Program-made: the position numbers and the translations under genes
The notes under the pieces: generated by a model
The model's input: only the letters and a program-made list of their open reading frames with translations
The model's database searches: none
Told to the model about the DNA's origin: nothing
Source of the DNA: a virus
Direction: 5' to 3' (one strand)
DNA length: 21,302 nt
IMG/VR virus record: IMGVR_UViG_3300029908_000169
Coordinates: 1 to 21,302 of that record
Shown here: positions 1 through 20,554 of the stretch, one piece after another
Position numbering within the stretch: position 1 is the first letter of the stretch
Layout of the letters: each line of letters opens with the position of its first letter

Positions 1-166
1 GCTCTGCCGGATCACTGTAGCGCCGTAATTGCATTGCACTTCGTTTTGCACATTCAGCAGGGTCTTTGCATAATAGTATCTGGCTAGCCCGCTGTTTCTC
101 ATGCTCCGCTGGATTAGCGTAACGCCGTAGTTGACCGTCCTGCATCTTCGCACGTTCAGCTGGGTC
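1..166 (-). repeat. 51-bp tandem repeat coding for 17-residue DPAE units
   Basis: Three full units and the start of a fourth lie in frame inside the left GIY-YIG gene. Each begins with Asp/Asn-Pro-Ala-Glu, and the first and third share LRRY. Units one and three are more alike than either is to unit two, which suggests a 102-bp duplication. The array continues past the window edge. Confidence 0.75.
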
Positions 167-577
167 TTCAAAACGACGCTTTACACCAATACTCATCTTT
201 TTACGCGACGCCTTAGAGTGCTTACCACGAAAACCCTCACCGCCAACAGTAAGATTGTAACTTTTATCGCCCAATAAATCAGCGTTATATGTATGAAGTT
301 TCTTAATGTAAGAGACTTCTTTTTCAAGTAGGTTTTTGCGTGGTCCGCGCCAGATTACTTCAAACTTAAAGCTCTTCCAATGCTTATCAATCTTCCACGC
401 TTTGCGCATAGCGCGATGGAGTGGACCCTTTGACACGCCAGTACAAGCATGCCAAATATGCTTCTTCCACCTATTAGTCTCCGGTTTACCAGTGGTATCA
501 CATCCTACGTAGCGTTTACCATTTACTAAATTAGTAATTAGATAAACACAACCCCAACCTTCTCGATGTTTTCTCAT
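1..577 (-). CDS. GIY-YIG homing endonuclease, incomplete (runs off left edge)
   Basis: Reading the minus strand from the ATG at 577 gives 192 codons with no stop before the window edge, so the C-terminus is missing. The N-terminus fits the GIY-YIG nuclease fold: CVYL (residues 10-13) and KRYVG (21-25) stand for the two name motifs. Arg36 and His40 follow, then a candidate catalytic Glu87 in EKEVSYIKKL, then SYNLTVGGEG (106-115). After a basic NUMOD3-like stretch, 17-residue repeats beginning D/N-P-A-E start at residues 138, 155, 172 and 189; such segments normally bind DNA next to the target site. The start is supported by GAAGGT 6 bases upstream. The gene lies just downstream of the major capsid gene, whose end looks intact, so this looks like a free-standing intergenic homing gene. 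It differs from the GIY-YIG protein at 17611-18330. Family assignment is confident; the target is unknown. Confidence 0.88.
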   Translation of the reverse strand, partial: MRKHREGWGCVYLITNLVNGKRYVGCDTTGKPETNRWKKHIWHACTGVSKGPLHRAMRKAWKIDKHWKSFKFEVIWRGPRKNLLEKEVSYIKKLHTYNADLLGDKSYNLTVGGEGFRGKHSKASRKKMSIGVKRRFEDPAERAKMQDGQLRRYANPAEHEKQRASQILLCKDPAECAKRSAMQLRRYSDPAE

Positions 578-609
578 GATTACCTTCATGTACCATTTAA
601 GAATTCAGG

Positions 610-9833: not shown

Positions 9834-10046
9834 CTACGCCATTACTCCACTAGCCGTATCTGGTACATGTTGATGCTCAAGTTCCCGCTCTTCACGCCAC
9901 AGCAGCAGGTTCAGCGGATTAGATCTGACCGGAACGTAACGGCCATCATCGCCTAGAGGCGCGGCGTTTGGAGCAGTAACTTTCTGATGACAAGTTGGAC
10001 AGCTGTATGTGAACGACCGACCGCATTGACACATTTTGAATAGCAT
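9834..10046 (-). CDS. Small zinc-ribbon-like protein (70 residues)
   Basis: The N-terminal half has CQCGRSFTYSCPTC: two Cys pairs (C6, C8 and C16, C19) that look like a compact zinc knuckle. The rest is polar with a short helix (NLLLWREERELEHQH). The ATG at 10046 overlaps the portal stop as TGATG, which argues for translational coupling. An internal ATG four residues on (MCQCG) could be the true start. The function is unknown; the position between portal and peptidase-like gene suggests a minor virion or assembly role. Confidence 0.6.
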   Translation of the reverse strand: MLFKMCQCGRSFTYSCPTCHQKVTAPNAAPLGDDGRYVPVRSNPLNLLLWREERELEHQHVPDTASGVMA

Positions 10047-13012
10047 CAGGGTTTCACCGTTCCGGCTGGTTTACTCATGTCATGCTTTTTGAGCCACTTC
10101 TTGAAATCGTCAACTTGCATTGGTGTCACATCCATGTAGATGGAGCAAGCGCGGTCGTGGCCGGCATTGAATGCCTTGATGGCGTCATCCATAGATGAAT
10201 AACCGACAAAACACTTGTGCTCGTCAAACCCACGCCGTGGCGGCAAATGCTTCTGATCGAAGATGTAAACCCAGGTAGACGCTGGATCAGGCCCGATGCA
10301 GATGTCGAGCGAATCACCGTCCGCACCAGGAATGCCGTCAAAGTAGCCGTAGTCATACGCCATGCGCACTCGCCAGCCTTGCCCTGTGCGCCATTGGCCG
10401 CGTTTCTGCTCGATGACCACTGGAAGGCCGTGGATAGTTTTAGTTTCAACTGCGGGGCCGTCGGCGTCGCGGGCCTGGCCTGTGTCACCAACGAAACCAC
10501 GACTTCTAGCGTATGCTTTACATTTAGCCGGATCAACACCGTACTGGTCTGCGTAGATATACAGGTTATCAAATGCGCGCCTATAAAGCAGTGCTACACC
10601 TTCGTCAGTACCGCGCAGTGCTTTTGGCAATGTTTCCGCTTCATTATCGCAAGCTTCCAGCCAGATAAGCTCGGGCGTCATCTTAGTGTCTTCGGCCCTC
10701 GTACGCGCCTTCCCCTGAGCACGCTGTACATACTTTAATACTTGCTGCTGCACATGCTCTGGCTTGAACCCGCGCTCAGTAGTAACATAGGCACCCCTAA
10801 CCCACACACCCATTTCATACTGTCCGTTGCCGCTCACTGTCGCTCGCAAGTCCAGGTCAGGTTTGCGCGCGCCAGGCGCCTCTGTCCCAAACCAAACAAT
10901 GTAGGCATAGTTTGAATCACTTGTTATTCGGAAGCCAGCGCTACGCAGCGCCTCTACTGTTGCCAGTTTAGCCGCACTCCATGGTTTGACGTCGTTCGCC
11001 CTTCCGCGTCTATAAGCATCAGAACAAGACGGGCAGACTACCGAGCCGTTCACGTCATCGCCATCCAAGTCAGCGGCACACCATTGGCACTTGGTGACGC
11101 CCTTGCGGAGGTCGGCATCTTGTGCGAAGCCTCTAGACCGTGCATACGCCATACATTTAGCTGGGTCAACGTGAGCCTGCTCTGCATAAAAGCTGAGGTT
11201 TCTAACTACACGTTTATGAAGTTCGATCTCGCCTTGTTCCGTACCCCGCAGTGCTTTTGGCAGTGTTAAAGCCTCATTGTCACAGGCGTCCAACCAAACA
11301 AGCTCAGCGCGAGTTGTCGCATACTTAGACCCGGCATCCTTCGCCTTTGAAGTGCCTTCCGAACCCTCCTCCACAGACCCATTTGGTGGAGCCTGGTGAC
11401 CCTGTGGCTCATCCGCCTCACCCGGCTGGCCGTTTACCTTACCGGCCTTATTCTCTTCCGTCAGGGCCTTAGCGGGCGAGGACGCAGGATTCAGCCCTCC
11501 GCCCTCAGCACCGAATAACCCTTCGCCCATTTCGCCTTCGGCTTGGACCTTGTCACTAAGCTTCTCGATGTCCTCGTCAGTGATGTTGGTGAAGATCTCG
11601 GTGCGGGTGCTGGACTGCTTCAGTTCCTTGGCGAATGTGCGCAGGCTGATGCCGCCTGCATTCAACGCCACTACGGCGGTATCTACTACGGTCTTAGCCA
11701 GCTCAGCCTTCTCTTTGTCATCCAGCACGCGGATGGAGGGGAACAGTAGGTCAAGGTCGTCCGGCACTTCTCCCAACTCGCTCATACACAGGACCGGGTA
11801 CAGCTTTTCCAAAGCTGGCCGCAATGTAACGTCGGACTCAGTGGAGATGGTCTCTTCGTAAATCTTCTCGTCACCGTCACCGGCCTGTCCGAGCCCGCTG
11901 TAAGTACGGCCCCACAACCGAGTGACCGGCATCTTGGCGGCACCGCTAATAGCCAACTGCCACATCTGCATCATGTCCGACAAGCCGGCGAAGCTATACT
12001 GCGTTTGGCTCAGCTCACCGTCCTTCTCGAGCAGCGCGAGGCTTTGATTCGACAGCATCTCATTGAACCGCTGCATGCGCTGCTCGAACTTCTGCGCCGC
12101 TGCTTGGTTCATACTGAGACCGGACATCATGCCGGCAAGGTCTGGCGCCTTCATCCCAAGAATGTTAGCTCTGAAGGAAAGCGACAATGCGTTCGACGTC
12201 AGCGTGTCATAACCTTGAATGGTTTGAATCACTGGAGCTAGGACGCTGATGCCCCAATCCTGATAAGCTGAGTTCTCCGGCTCCGGCATTCGCGGGCCGC
12301 TAAAACGAAGGATGCGGCTGTTGTGCACTTTGAAGCTGTCGCCGCCTTTGACCTTAACTTCGTAGAATTCTGAATGACCAAAGTCCAATGGGCGATTGAG
12401 GTCGTCGCAAACGTCGCCCGTTGGTGAGATCCCACTCCAGCGATCGAAGGTGATAAGACCTGCGTAGTCATGAATACCCACGCTGTCAAGTTCTAGGGGT
12501 TGATCCAGTTCTTTGTCTTGCTTCTTGATAGCGATCAGCGCGCCTGCGCCGCCAAACAACCGCGCCTTCTCAATAGCCTCGCGAACCTTACTGCGCGTGT
12601 TGGTGCGGCGAACGGCGCGATCGATACGCGTAAGATCTTCAGGATCAATGTCGCTAGTGATCTTCGGCCAAGTCTTGACGATATCCTCAGCGGGCGCGCA
12701 GACGATGCGGCGGGCGATCCAGGACGACTCGAAGAAGGAGATGATAGCCCAAAAATTAAGCGAGAACCGCATTAGCGGGTATTCAGCATAGTTCTCAAGG
12801 CTGGAAGTGCCATAACCCGTGCGTGCCGCTGGGTTGCTGAAGACGTCGATGGCATGGGCCAAGTTGGAGGTAGTGGGTCCTATCAAACCAAGATGATCTT
12901 CTTGCTTAGTGATCTTACTGCGCTTTGAATACTGTGCGCCAACGGGCGCTGTGCGGGCGTCGAACAATGTGTCAAGAGCGGAGCGGGCCGCTTTGTTTTT
13001 GCTAGATGGCAT
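10046..13012 (-). CDS. Portal protein fused to zinc ribbon, duplicated modules and pyrophosphatase-like domain
   Basis: The protein has 988 residues, about twice the length expected of a portal. Residues 1-500 fit the DUF1073-type portal: YAEYPLMRFSLNFWAIISFF, SWIARRIVCAPAEDIVKTW, RLFGGAGALIAI, MPVTRLWGRTYSGLGQAGDG and a helical ending. The portal forms the dodecameric DNA channel at one head vertex. A Gly/Pro/Glu linker ends in SKAKDA (555-560). A helical module (566-630), a four-Cys zinc ribbon (C642, C645, C660, C663), a beta module (676-765), a second copy of the helical module (778-842) and the tag QARDA follow. The C-terminal domain (about 860-975) has GLPVVIEQKRG, YDYGYFDG, GADGDSLDICIG and FDEHKCFVGY; DGDSLD resembles the Asp cluster of soluble inorganic pyrophosphatases and fits the InPase domain of phage polyvalent proteins. 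The start has AAAGGAGG 11 bases upstream. Confidence 0.88.
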   Translation of the reverse strand: MPSSKNKAARSALDTLFDARTAPVGAQYSKRSKITKQEDHLGLIGPTTSNLAHAIDVFSNPAARTGYGTSSLENYAEYPLMRFSLNFWAIISFFESSWIARRIVCAPAEDIVKTWPKITSDIDPEDLTRIDRAVRRTNTRSKVREAIEKARLFGGAGALIAIKKQDKELDQPLELDSVGIHDYAGLITFDRWSGISPTGDVCDDLNRPLDFGHSEFYEVKVKGGDSFKVHNSRILRFSGPRMPEPENSAYQDWGISVLAPVIQTIQGYDTLTSNALSLSFRANILGMKAPDLAGMMSGLSMNQAAAQKFEQRMQRFNEMLSNQSLALLEKDGELSQTQYSFAGLSDMMQMWQLAISGAAKMPVTRLWGRTYSGLGQAGDGDEKIYEETISTESDVTLRPALEKLYPVLCMSELGEVPDDLDLLFPSIRVLDDKEKAELAKTVVDTAVVALNAGGISLRTFAKELKQSSTRTEIFTNITDEDIEKLSDKVQAEGEMGEGLFGAEGGGLNPASSPAKALTEENKAGKVNGQPGEADEPQGHQAPPNGSVEEGSEGTSKAKDAGSKYATTRAELVWLDACDNEALTLPKALRGTEQGEIELHKRVVRNLSFYAEQAHVDPAKCMAYARSRGFAQDADLRKGVTKCQWCAADLDGDDVNGSVVCPSCSDAYRRGRANDVKPWSAAKLATVEALRSAGFRITSDSNYAYIVWFGTEAPGARKPDLDLRATVSGNGQYEMGVWVRGAYVTTERGFKPEHVQQQVLKYVQRAQGKARTRAEDTKMTPELIWLEACDNEAETLPKALRGTDEGVALLYRRAFDNLYIYADQYGVDPAKCKAYARSRGFVGDTGQARDADGPAVETKTIHGLPVVIEQKRGQWRTGQGWRVRMAYDYGYFDGIPGADGDSLDICIGPDPASTWVYIFDQKHLPPRRGFDEHKCFVGYSSMDDAIKAFNAGHDRACSIYMDVTPMQVDDFKKWLKKHDMSKPAGTVKP
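10487..10681 (-). repeat. Internal duplication in the portal, second copy
   Basis: Residues 778-842 (TPELIWLEACDNEAETLPKA and onward to KAYARSRGF) repeat the module at 11123-11317. Long runs are identical, including LPKALRGT and AYARSRGF. Confidence 0.88.
11123..11317 (-). repeat. Internal duplication in the portal, first copy
   Basis: Residues 566-630 (TTRAELVWLDACDNEALTLP and onward to MAYARSRGF) form a helical module that returns at 10487-10681. The two copies are separated by a zinc ribbon and a beta module, each bounded by an A-x-D tag. Confidence 0.88.
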
Positions 13013-16765: not shown

Positions 16766-16787
16766 TCAGTCTCCTTGCAAAAGACTT

Positions 16788-16919
16788 CTAGTGAACTACC
16801 GTGACGACGCCGTCAAGCGCCACGTGGACCCTGCAGCATGAAACTGCGTTCAACGCCGTCTCCAGCTTCTTCGCCGCCTTGCGTTTACGGCGAAGCTTGA
16901 ACCACTCGAACAAGAACAT
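16788..16919 (-). CDS. Very small basic hypothetical protein (43 residues)
   Basis: The ATG at 16919 begins MFLFEWFKLRRKRKAAKKLE and has GGAG about 9 bases upstream, just after the stop of the 182-residue gene. The layout is a short hydrophobic N-terminus, a strongly basic segment, a helix, then VHVALDGVVTVVH. The frame is open far upstream, but that part overlaps the previous gene, so the short form is preferred. It could be membrane-associated or nucleic-acid binding; no family is recognised. Confidence 0.5.
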   Translation of the reverse strand: MFLFEWFKLRRKRKAAKKLETALNAVSCCRVHVALDGVVTVVH

Positions 16920-16932
16920 GCGTGCTATCTCC

Positions 16933-17481
16933 TTACCAAGTTTTACGTTCCGGTTGATAAGTGCGCAGATCGTAACTGCCCATCCCCACGGTTTCTTTTG
17001 GGCCGTAGTGCTTAGCAATGAGGGCGGCAATAATGCCGGCCCAGAAGAGAGTGTTGAAAGAGAGGGAGTCGTGGGCTTTGGACTTGATAAGCTTTGCCAT
17101 CTTGTCCTGCAGAATGATCTGCTGGCCGTAGTTCAGACCTTTAATCTTCTCAGCCCACAACCTACGCGCCGCCGCTTCGCTTTGCGTCTTGTACGCGTTG
17201 GCAAGCTCAGCGGCGTCCGTGTCAACTTGGGCGTCGGTGGCTTTGCCGATTAGCCGATCCAAGTCTACGTTAGACGGCGCACCCAATATAGTGCGTACTA
17301 GCTCTGAACTTCCATCTGAGCGACAGATGATCCGCGTGATAGTTGCACCAGGATCGCGCTTCTCTACGCTCCAGCCATTCGCCGTAGGTACTACATATCG
17401 ACGTGCTCCGCTGTTCTGTGCGCTGCTAAGCGCGGCTTTAACAGCTGAGTCTTTATCAGCTCGATTATACCTAGCCACCAC
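16933..17481 (-). CDS. Hypothetical protein with C-terminal membrane segment (182 residues)
   Basis: The start is GTG (17481 or the next codon) directly after the TGA of the displaced terminase fragment, with GAGG a few bases upstream. Residues about 26-45 (ARRYVVPTANGWSVEKRDPG) loosely resemble short DUF2188-like beta modules. Residues 80-140 are helical (AAELANAYKTQSEAAARRLW). Residues about 147-160 (TLFWAGIIAALIAKHYG) form one hydrophobic segment that may cross or touch a membrane. Its tight junction with the terminase-like fragment implies that it once followed the terminase gene directly. The function is unknown. Confidence 0.62.
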   Translation of the reverse strand: MVARYNRADKDSAVKAALSSAQNSGARRYVVPTANGWSVEKRDPGATITRIICRSDGSSELVRTILGAPSNVDLDRLIGKATDAQVDTDAAELANAYKTQSEAAARRLWAEKIKGLNYGQQIILQDKMAKLIKSKAHDSLSFNTLFWAGIIAALIAKHYGPKETVGMGSYDLRTYQPERKTW

Positions 17482-17610
17482 TCACCCTCGCAACATCCGC
17501 CACGCGGGAATCTTTTCATGCACTCCATAGCGCAAAGCGTCGCAATCATCGTCCTCAACCTTAAACGGCTGCTCTTTACCAGCCTTTGCTGCAGTGGCAT
17601 CCCACGTCAG
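17482..17610 (-). pseudogene. Displaced C-terminal remnant of the large terminase gene
   Basis: These 42 codons plus TGA follow the endonuclease stop (TAG) in the same frame and have no start codon of their own. The peptide LTWDATAAKAGKEQPFKVED then DDCDALRYGVHEKI aligns without gaps to the last 42 residues of the intact terminase (AWDKKKSENGTEQVVKKRDH then CPDAGRYIVNDVFA). About 12 positions are identical, including W-D, G, E-Q, K, D, D-A, R-Y and V. D-x-x-x-D-A-x-R-Y is a usual ending of large terminases. The TGA abuts the start of the next gene, as a native gene end would. I read it as the original C-terminus, pushed aside when the endonuclease cassette supplied a new one. Confidence 0.78.
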
Positions 17611-18330
17611 CTACGCATGAAGTACATGGCCCATGCGTTTATGCTGCGCACTGGCTTTAGCGCTAAGCACTGTGAGCGTTTTATCAGAGAAGTAACGCCC
17701 GCTAGCTGCACGACGTTTGCCAGCCTCTGATTGTTTGCGCCGTGTTACCACACCAGCTAGACTAGCATAGTGGCGCATCGATGCTTCACGCGTCTTTACG
17801 TGCTCGGCTTCACTCGCGTAACGAATACGAAGTCCGGTTGAATGATTAGCGCATTCACGCTTGCTAAGCTTACGGCCGGACAACTTCGCTGCTATACGAG
17901 CTTTGCACGCTGCACCTTCAGGCGTAGCATAGTACGCAATTTTCTTAGCGGCAACTTTGCCCTTATTAGCCGCACCAATCTTCGCGCCGATGGCTTTGCG
18001 TTCTTTGTAACTACGATGCCCATAACCGCCGCCATCGCCACCGAGTGTAAGGTTGTAGCCATGCGGCGTAATTGTATTTAGCTGCTTAATAAAGCACCGC
18101 TCAGCTTCGCGCAATAAAGGCTCAGTACATTGATGCAGTGTTTCTATGACAAAATTTGCCGCGCCCCATTTGCGTAATGCGCGATGAAAGTAAACGTCAC
18201 TACCATGCGCAGCATCATAGAGATGTCGCGCAAATCGCTTTTCGACAGCGACGATTGTCCACCCAACGTAGCGCTTACCATTCAGTTTGTTAGTTACGCT
18301 GTAAACATTACCGACACGATAACTTTTCAT
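17611..18330 (-). CDS. GIY-YIG homing endonuclease with NUMOD-like DNA-binding tail
   Basis: The protein has 239 residues. NVYSV (8-12) and KRYVG (19-23) are the GIY-YIG motifs; Arg32 and His36 follow, Glu77 in REAERCFIKQL is the likely metal-binding residue, and GYNLTLGGDG (91-100) closes the nuclease domain. The tail is basic with NUMOD3-like stretches (KERKAIGAKIGAANKGK, KRECANHSTGLRIRY, TRRKQSEAGKRRAASGRY). I start at the ATG at 18330 because it overlaps the terminase TGA as ATGA, with GGAGG 9 bases upstream inside the terminase gene; the frame is open five codons further. Such enzymes cut alleles lacking the insertion and spread by repair. This one is followed in the same frame by a displaced terminase C-terminus. 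Confidence 0.92.
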   Translation of the reverse strand: MKSYRVGNVYSVTNKLNGKRYVGWTIVAVEKRFARHLYDAAHGSDVYFHRALRKWGAANFVIETLHQCTEPLLREAERCFIKQLNTITPHGYNLTLGGDGGGYGHRSYKERKAIGAKIGAANKGKVAAKKIAYYATPEGAACKARIAAKLSGRKLSKRECANHSTGLRIRYASEAEHVKTREASMRHYASLAGVVTRRKQSEAGKRRAASGRYFSDKTLTVLSAKASAQHKRMGHVLHA

Positions 18331-19592
18331 GCCGACAGCCTCCACTCCTGCGCAAACACATCATTGACAATGTAACGTCCGGCGTCGGGACAGTGATCAC
18401 GCTTCTTGACAACTTGCTCAGTGCCATTCTCACTTTTCTTCTTATCCCATGCGTAGCTTTGAAACTCAACAGGCGAGTGCGGACACCGGACACGGTGGAA
18501 CCGCAGCTTCTTCTGCGCCAGCACAGAGGCCACACGGCGAATGCCGTAAGTCATGACGTCATTGTCACAATCACCCACCCACATACCTCTGCGCACCAAC
18601 TCAGCGCGAAAGCTAGCGGCCGAAGGATCGACGATTATCTTTGGTTCGGCGGGGCAATTAGATTCCTTGATGAACTGCTCGAGGTCATCAGCCAGTTCAG
18701 AATCCGTTTTCTGCCGCATCTCCTTGATGGAATCCCAGTAATACTCATTGTCAATCCAAACGGTACGGTTGTCATCAATTCCGTCTAAGAAAACGGTAGG
18801 GTTGGTCGTTCCGTAATCCACACCTATAAGGTGCCCCGTGTAACCAGTACCACCACCTGCGCTATACAACGATGGCGGCCGCGTGCGGTCATCATATAAG
18901 GTGCCATCGTTCCACGCTCCGGCGTAGACCGCACCAGACGCCATTTTCCACTCGCCCAAAATCATACGGTCATAAAAAACTCCAGTATAGAGTTTCTTTT
19001 GATCAGCAACATATGACGGGTCTAAATTTGGGTTGTCCTCCATGGTGTAGGTGTCCCACCACAGAATTTTGCCATCGCGCAGTTTGACGTTGTCTAGGTA
19101 ATCAGTCTTCAACCAGTGGAACGGGGAGTCAGCATTAGTGCTGAAGTACAGCCGCGCACCGGGCGGTGAGAGCCTGGTTAAAAGCATTTGCCAATATGAT
19201 TGCGGCATGAGCACAGCTTCGTCGCATACCGCTGCGCCGATCGTAGCACCGCGTAGGTACTTCTCAGAGCCTTCGTCCTTCGCACCGTAGACTAACCAAT
19301 CAGTATTAAAGAGCCGCAGTTCCCCAGACTGACTGTTGTAGTGGTATGAGTTTTTACCGACAAGATCGAAGAGGTCAGTAAGCACATTCGTTTTGATACT
19401 AGACTTACTGACGCCGGTGATAAGCCTGCGCCCTTGCACCGGATAGTCACACAAATACATAATCTTGCTATGAAGGCCCCAAGTTTTTCCGGACCTAACT
19501 GAACCCACAAGACCGTTGATCTTGGCATCCAGCTCCGGCGGGCGCATCGCAAAGCGTTCCATACGCGGACCGTAGTTCAACCTAGGAGGCAT
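18327..19592 (-). CDS. terL: Terminase large subunit (packaging ATPase and nuclease)
   Basis: The protein has 421 residues from the ATG at 19592 (MPPRLNYGPRMERFAM). I prefer this start because GGAG lies 8 bases upstream and it overlaps the small-subunit gene by 11 bases; 21 more open codons upstream look like shadow. Walker A is GSVRSGKT (30-37), Walker B AAVCDEAV (Asp124, Glu125), and the coupling motif is YFSTNADSP (149-157). The nuclease domain has GVDYG (Asp259), IIVDPSAASF (Asp322) and RDHCPDAGRYIV (Asp399, Asp403). The set fits the PBSX/Terminase_3-like group. It cuts concatemers and drives DNA into the procapsid through the portal. The last ~42 codons have a second, divergent copy at 17482-17610, so the present C-terminus may be of foreign origin. 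Confidence 0.95.
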   Translation of the reverse strand: MPPRLNYGPRMERFAMRPPELDAKINGLVGSVRSGKTWGLHSKIMYLCDYPVQGRRLITGVSKSSIKTNVLTDLFDLVGKNSYHYNSQSGELRLFNTDWLVYGAKDEGSEKYLRGATIGAAVCDEAVLMPQSYWQMLLTRLSPPGARLYFSTNADSPFHWLKTDYLDNVKLRDGKILWWDTYTMEDNPNLDPSYVADQKKLYTGVFYDRMILGEWKMASGAVYAGAWNDGTLYDDRTRPPSLYSAGGGTGYTGHLIGVDYGTTNPTVFLDGIDDNRTVWIDNEYYWDSIKEMRQKTDSELADDLEQFIKESNCPAEPKIIVDPSAASFRAELVRRGMWVGDCDNDVMTYGIRRVASVLAQKKLRFHRVRCPHSPVEFQSYAWDKKKSENGTEQVVKKRDHCPDAGRYIVNDVFAQEWRLSA

Positions 19593-20304
19593 TCTCAATC
19601 TCCTGGCTACGGCTACGGAACTGAGCAAGCAGCTCTTGGAGCGCATCATTACCACTATCAGGGTCTACCGGCTGCACGCCGTACTTCTTGGGCGACTCAC
19701 GCGCCAGCAACCACTTCTGTGTTTCTACCGCGAGGCGTGCACGATCGACGTTATCAAACTCTCGGGTCTCAGTAGTGTCACCGTCGCGGCCACCTGTACG
19801 CTTCACAGTGATAGTGCCAATCAAAGGCAGCTGACTGGCGTGAACTATTTGAGCAGCTCTGATGTCACACCATAAAGACCGCGCGCGAGCGTAAGCTTTG
19901 TCAAACTCAGGGTGATCGTGGAGCCACTCATAGAAGCTCCAAACCGTCGGTAACGTTGGATCTGCATTCAACCGCAGCAAATCCATAGTAGGATCTGTCG
20001 CAAACATAATGCAAATCTTCTTACCAATCTCGGGGTCGTACGCAACGGGCTTTGGCGTAGCGCCGTGAATTACAATAGCGCCCTTGCCGCCCTTTGTCTT
20101 CTGCAGCACTGGCTTCTTTGCTTTATGTGCATCAAACTCTTCAAGCTGAGCTTTACGATATGTAGCCTTATTGATTACACGCTTCGCCTTACGGGTAAGT
20201 TCACCGTTGCGCTTCCGCCCTTCAATGGGGGCGGCCTTTACTATACTTATACTCTGGCGCTTCCGCTCAGCTGGCGTCGGCGCGCCTCGCTTCACGGTGG
20301 CCAT
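19582..20304 (-). CDS. terS: Terminase small subunit
   Basis: The protein has 240 residues. It would bind the packaging site in the phage DNA and hand it to the large subunit. The N-terminal half is basic (RGAPTPAERKRQS, RKRNGELTRKAKRVINKATY), typical for DNA contact. The middle has LPTVWSFYEWLHDHPEFDKA and YARARSLWCDIRAAQIVHAS, a pattern seen in phage small terminases (helix-turn-helix followed by a long helix). The C-terminus (ALQELLAQFRSRSQEIENAS) is helical and could contact the large subunit. The start has AAAGGAG about 9 bases upstream, and the gene overlaps terL by 11 bases. Sequence pattern and position agree. Confidence 0.88.
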   Translation of the reverse strand: MATVKRGAPTPAERKRQSISIVKAAPIEGRKRNGELTRKAKRVINKATYRKAQLEEFDAHKAKKPVLQKTKGGKGAIVIHGATPKPVAYDPEIGKKICIMFATDPTMDLLRLNADPTLPTVWSFYEWLHDHPEFDKAYARARSLWCDIRAAQIVHASQLPLIGTITVKRTGGRDGDTTETREFDNVDRARLAVETQKWLLARESPKKYGVQPVDPDSGNDALQELLAQFRSRSQEIENAS

Positions 20305-20477: not shown

Positions 20478-20554
20478 TGGTCGGAGTAGATGGATTTGAA
20501 CCACCGACGTCTCGGTCCCAGGCCGAGTGCGCTACCAGACTGCGCCATACTCCG
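20478..20554 (-). tRNA. tRNA-Pro (UGG anticodon), CCA encoded
   Basis: All arms of a standard tRNA can be drawn: acceptor CGGAGTA with TACTCCG, D arm GCGC/GCGC with AGTCTGGTA loop, anticodon arm CTCGG/CCGAG, variable ACGTC, T arm GGTGG/CCATC with TTCAAAT loop (one G-T pair), then A73 and CCA. The C1-G72 pair with A73 is the hallmark of bacterial tRNA-Pro. The anticodon loop reads CCTGGGA, so the anticodon is UGG, but position 33 is C where U is nearly universal. It begins two bases after the stop of the 99-residue gene and shares its transcript. It would supply a proline decoder during late expression if functional. Confidence 0.93.

Follow-up and report, generated by a model that had tools for sequence, protein, structure and literature searches.

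Homing endonuclease genes are well established at the boundaries of gene exchange between phages, including boundaries near terminase genes (Barth, Dunham and Seed 2023, PMC10448857), and in the HEG-islands described there the mosaic boundary coincides exactly with a homing-type nuclease gene that neighbours an essential terminase gene. The sections of that paper that concern the islands describe them at the level of gene neighbourhood, with no mention of a leftover end of the displaced gene. In phage T4 the Seg proteins are free-standing GIY-YIG endonucleases known from intronless homing and marker exclusion, the genes flanking them are co-converted between related phages, and one-sided illegitimate repair of breaks is known in the same phage (PMC2988022). 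A third arrangement occurs in fungi, in atp6 of Allomyces and in atp6, atp9, cox2 and nad3 of Glomus, where the functional gene end is followed by an endonuclease gene and then by a divergent second C-terminus; in these hybrids a native core has acquired a foreign end to make the functional gene, and the end that was displaced is the core's own (PMC3630166).

The window analysed here, the whole 21,302-nt stretch of IMG/VR record IMGVR_UViG_3300029908_000169, has the same order as the fungal hybrids. Along the minus strand come terL, a GIY-YIG gene, a 6-nt spacer, a terL-like 3' end and the next gene. The terL gene (18327–19592) encodes 421 residues with a complete C-terminus (...DHCPDAGRY...WRLSA and stop), and the ATG (18330–18328) of the GIY-YIG gene (17611–18330, 239 residues) lies on the TGA of terL (18329–18327) as an ATGA overlap at 18330–18327. 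The GIY-YIG gene ends at 17611 and the start-less frame 17610–17482 translates to LTWDATAAKAGKEQPFKVEDDDCDALRYGVHEKIPAWRMLRG and a stop, the TGA of which directly adjoins the GTG of the next gene (16933–17481, 182 residues), and the hexamer TGGGAT is present both at 18449–18444 and at 17604–17599. An earlier note on this DNA had described the intact terL, the ATGA overlap, the abutting TGA and the common hexamer, all of which are confirmed. The layout is found in four further IMG/VR contigs (L003, L004, L006 and L015), and the 981 nt compared contain one base difference altogether. The identical junctions in five contigs rule out an assembly artefact.

As in the HEG-islands the nuclease gene borders an essential gene at the point where one phage lineage gives way to another in the mosaic, but unlike what is mentioned of those islands the window also has the leftover end of a displaced gene. 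The gene is free-standing like those of the T4 Seg enzymes, to which the window nuclease is likened by its sequence. It differs from the fungal hybrids in that terL is of one lineage across the point of the supposed fusion, and in that the relic comes from another gene lineage. What is new here is a readable scar, which we interpret as that of a terminase swap, with the relic of the loser behind the nuclease gene, and the locus is a variant of the known homing genes at boundaries. Such genes commonly neighbour phage terminase genes and lie at mosaic boundaries, but as a rule the sequence of events can no longer be traced; the relic of the displaced terL together with a close relative in which that terL is intact (L192), a nuclease-free relative (L008) and an apparently live polymorphism makes the swap readable at base resolution.

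The earlier note had regarded the start-less frame as the old end of the window's own TerL, aligned over 42 residues without gaps at about 30% identity. The match is real, but it covers 38 residues with about 37% identity and one 1-residue gap. Its score of 52 compares with 26.9 ± 4.4 for shuffled sequences, 1 of 2000 of which reaches 52, and a blind search of 50,697 phage records with the 42 residues of the fragment found TerL C-termini (E 3e-6), so the resemblance is not due to chance. True homology starts at the TGG at 17604, and the preceding six nucleotides (CTGACG, 17610–17605) form the spacer with the seam and have no terL-B homology upstream of the Trp codon. The relic proper (17482–17604) consists of 40 codons and a stop, and retains the residues that are invariant among TerL tails. 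A search based on the fragment aligned to two similar tails gave TerL genes with matching uninterrupted ends, and the best match is the uninterrupted gene of L192 (L192:3001–3123), with 89.4% DNA identity from the Trp codon to the stop. Over the final 63 nt of the relic L003 is identical to L192, and the window has one base different there.

The TerL of L192 is 41% identical to that of the window, and a tree of the tails places the relic as the sister of L192 (support 0.988) within a lineage here called B, with the window TerL in lineage A. The fragment is accordingly classed as a displaced terminase end, as the earlier note had held, but as the end of a different TerL lineage and not of the window's own. 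The same kind of end is found on the TerL-B genes of L193, L195, L196, L030 and L223–L227, uninterrupted at that point, and none of the 31 TerL-B loci retrieved is interrupted at the relic site. In L227, which is 88% identical to L192, terL-B is immediately followed by a gene homologous to the next gene of the window. Both have the boundary GAGTGGTGGCTA, where the next gene starts, indicating that the relic and the next gene represent a native lineage-B junction. The C-terminal part of the next gene is homologous in L008 and L227, and no relatives of it were found among the phage records. Compared with L192, 7 of the 11 changed codons of the relic are synonymous and neither a stop codon nor a frameshift interrupts it, so that its loss of the role of a gene end was probably recent.

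DNA similarity to L008 is lost beyond 18342, where four codons of terL and its stop are still to come, and restarts at 17079 within the next gene (16766–17079, 89%), and between 18342 and 17079 similarity to L192 is limited to 17604–17482. Homology to terL-B continuing into the 3' end of the nuclease gene was not convincingly above background, as the score was reached by a fraction of 0.17 of random stretches for L192 and 0.04 for L227. Both outer flanks are nearest to L008, an A-type phage, with 96% identity in terS and 89–91% in stretches from 17079 on. The DNA upstream of terS in L222, the whole contig of L192, is 83% identical to the window and 82% to L008, indicating that phages with A and B terminases share a backbone.

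The locus is probably the scar of a terminase allele swap, in which a lineage-A arm with the nuclease gene was joined to a lineage-B right arm. The incoming DNA would have been a lineage-A terminase arm with a free-standing, I-TevI-like GIY-YIG gene directly behind terL, and the recipient a phage with a terL-B similar to that of L192 or L227, which contributed the right arm. The seam would be located at the codons for the conserved Trp-Asp of terL-B, 6 nt past the end of the endonuclease gene, and the resident gene would have been replaced whole or nearly so, leaving its last 40 codons and stop as a start-less dead relic. We infer that lineage B was the resident and lineage A the incomer, but the polarity of the swap is uncertain since both outer flanks are nearest to L008 while L192 shares the 83% identical upstream DNA.

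The L008-like DNA on both outer sides would also follow if the nuclease gene, the relic and the start of the next gene had moved as one segment from a B-type into an A-type phage, from a source that already had the nuclease gene immediately ahead of a terL-B tail, the terL-B being split or redundant. In L192 and L032 a GIY-YIG gene lies directly upstream of terL, and if such an order came to stand in tandem and the redundant terL-B core was then deleted, a nuclease gene and a tail would remain. We consider this history unlikely, however, as no nuclease-interrupted or 5'-deleted terL-B is present among the 31 loci, and the window nuclease is just 35% identical to that of L192.

A hybrid TerL, as suggested in the earlier note, is much less probable still. 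The nuclease cassette would have brought a foreign terL C-terminus and displaced the original one downstream, in the manner of atp6 in fungal mitochondria. The fungal analogue does exist, and the two divergent C-termini flanking an endonuclease gene reproduce the architecture seen in Allomyces and Glomus mitochondria (PMC3630166), but the window does not show a native core with a foreign end. The TerLs of L007 and L008 are 91% identical overall to that of the window with the final 75 residues identical, that of L009 is 79% identical with a similar end, and all three phages, which have no nuclease gene behind terL and thereby make the site polymorphic for its presence, have TerL ends matching 18327–18449, an observation that the earlier note had itself named as speaking against its model. 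Identity to L008 is 100% both at residues 331–380 and at 381–421, and to L009 82% and 83% respectively, so identity stays level across the proposed fusion point. In separate trees the core groups with L008 and L009, far from L192, and the core and tail of the window TerL fall in one clade, while the relic falls with L192. Since nuclease-free relatives share the tail, identity does not jump and core and tail cluster together, the tail is judged to be native; the lineage of the relic is moreover just 41% identical to the window TerL. On the basis of these relatives, segment identities and trees the foreign tail is rejected. In the last four terL codons and the stop (AGG CTG TCG GCA TGA, 18327–18341) all four codons differ from those of L008 (CGG CTT AGC GCG TGA) and yet keep R-L-S-A, which fits a carried end, and this is the only C-terminal stretch that may have been carried along.

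The window TerL is a mosaic, but upstream of the proposed fusion point. Residues 1–95 are nearest to L010 (88%), and from about residue 185 to the end the nearest is L008 (95–100%). The 5' part of terL is about 70–80% identical in DNA to L008, unlike the block 18342–19041 that is near-identical to L008 with a divergent patch near 18879–18825, indicating recent gene conversion. The protein belongs to the same terminase family as TerL of phage D6E (PDB 5oe8; residues 29–413, E 7e-59), for which, unlike the window, neither a nuclease gene nor a second tail is described. The working TerL is predicted to be a complete lineage-A protein.

The product of the GIY-YIG gene matches Pfam PF01541 with 26.1 bits (cut-off 22.6), a PHROG homing endonuclease family (7.8e-26) and NCBIfam TIGR01453, group I intron endonuclease (62 bits, cut-off 56), and the gene is assigned to the homing type, in agreement with the earlier note. 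Its GIY-YIG domain resembles the catalytic domain of I-TevI (PDB 1mk0 and 1ln0) over 88 residues (E 4e-4), with the C-terminal part outside the match, but the window gene is free-standing and has no intron. The GC3 is 0.43, compared with 0.54–0.64 in most neighbouring genes. Among the best relatives of the nuclease are GIY-YIG genes located between terS and terL in L192 (35%) and L008 (29%), and L032 has one in the same place, by which the terS–terL locus of this phage group is seen to be a repeated home of such genes. In L192 and L032 the gene likewise has its start in an ATGA shared with the gene before it. In L008 (3343–4008) it is the 3' end of the GIY-YIG gene that overlaps the start of terL, mirroring the ATGA at the terL stop in the window. 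A search of viral contigs and bacterial genomes for relatives of the window nuclease yielded no close ones outside the same phage, with a single weak match over 34 residues, and no contig was found with terL-A and the window nuclease minus the relic, or with this nuclease in another setting.

A group I intron in terL, with a conserved RNA fold and a frame restored on splicing, is hardly credible even though the nuclease scores above the NCBIfam cut-off for group I intron endonucleases and a related TerL (L014) has an intein, as no Rfam intron matched in the window or, at relaxed thresholds, in 17200–19700, terL is complete with no need for splicing, in agreement with the earlier note, and has a tail as in uninterrupted relatives, and with the nuclease stop 6 nt from the relic a 3' intron core would have no space beyond the gene. 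The nuclease gene is within neither an intron nor an intein.

The intein of L014 (IMGVR 3300012411_000446; L014:1880–2970) is inserted between DH and CPDALRY of the TerL nuclease-domain motif. It is recognized by Pfam Intein_splicing (5.7e-14) and by N- and C-terminal intein motifs of NCBIfam, and has an HNH-like frame within it. TerL inteins of mycobacteriophages have been reported solely in the ATPase domain (PMC5050341). The terL frame of L014 also shifts near 1575 (1559–1575), with residues 290–295 in two frames, by a sequencing error or a frameshift.

With regard to how a terminase swap of this kind could have taken place, a break in terL-B made by the window nuclease or a related one, repaired by homology on the left and by microhomology or end joining on the right, would give the product in one step, and we infer that such a break was the cause. 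In T4, breaks in the td intron system, which has a GIY-YIG nuclease, are known to be repaired by a one-sided illegitimate route at microhomology (PMC2988022). The seam reads ACG-TGGGAT where L192 has ACGCATGGGAT, and 2 nt are lost. The overhang of GIY-YIG enzymes is 2 nt (PMC2988022), and the loss fits this length but proves nothing. A tentative and rather doubtful extension is that the nuclease itself cuts terL-B at the Tyr-Ala-Trp-Asp codons (ACG/CA/TGGGAT, the seam being this sequence minus CA), and drives the replacement of terminases across lineages by one-sided repair, leaving the relic. If so, the packaging motor would be subject to an allele drive by a selfish gene. The 13-mer TACGCATGGGATA, common to terL-A and L192, was considered as a cut site and is kept as a lead only, as TAC GCA TGG GAT is present in several other TerL genes. 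DNA of this locus and its relatives could serve directly as substrate in cleavage assays.

Two contigs of metagenome 3300037166, 000041 (L005) and 000005 (L015), share exactly 127 nt, at the end of the former and the start of the latter. The shared stretch corresponds to 18468–18342 of the window, and the contigs diverge at the position where, by comparison with L008, alleles with and without the nuclease gene first become different. An assembler run with k = 127 leaves an overlap of exactly 127 nt at a branch in the graph. The overlap and the position of the split, a coincidence that is hard to explain otherwise, indicate from the assembly that both alleles probably coexist in this metagenome.

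Elsewhere in the window, a second GIY-YIG gene (2–589, minus strand) is truncated by the window end and is about 32% identical to the first. The portal protein is encoded by an ORF of 988 residues (10046–13012, minus strand) with a C-terminal domain fused on, which is recognized as InPase by Pfam and as DarB-like by PHROG. A tRNA gene is located upstream of terS (20481–20554, minus strand), and its 3' part is conserved in L192.
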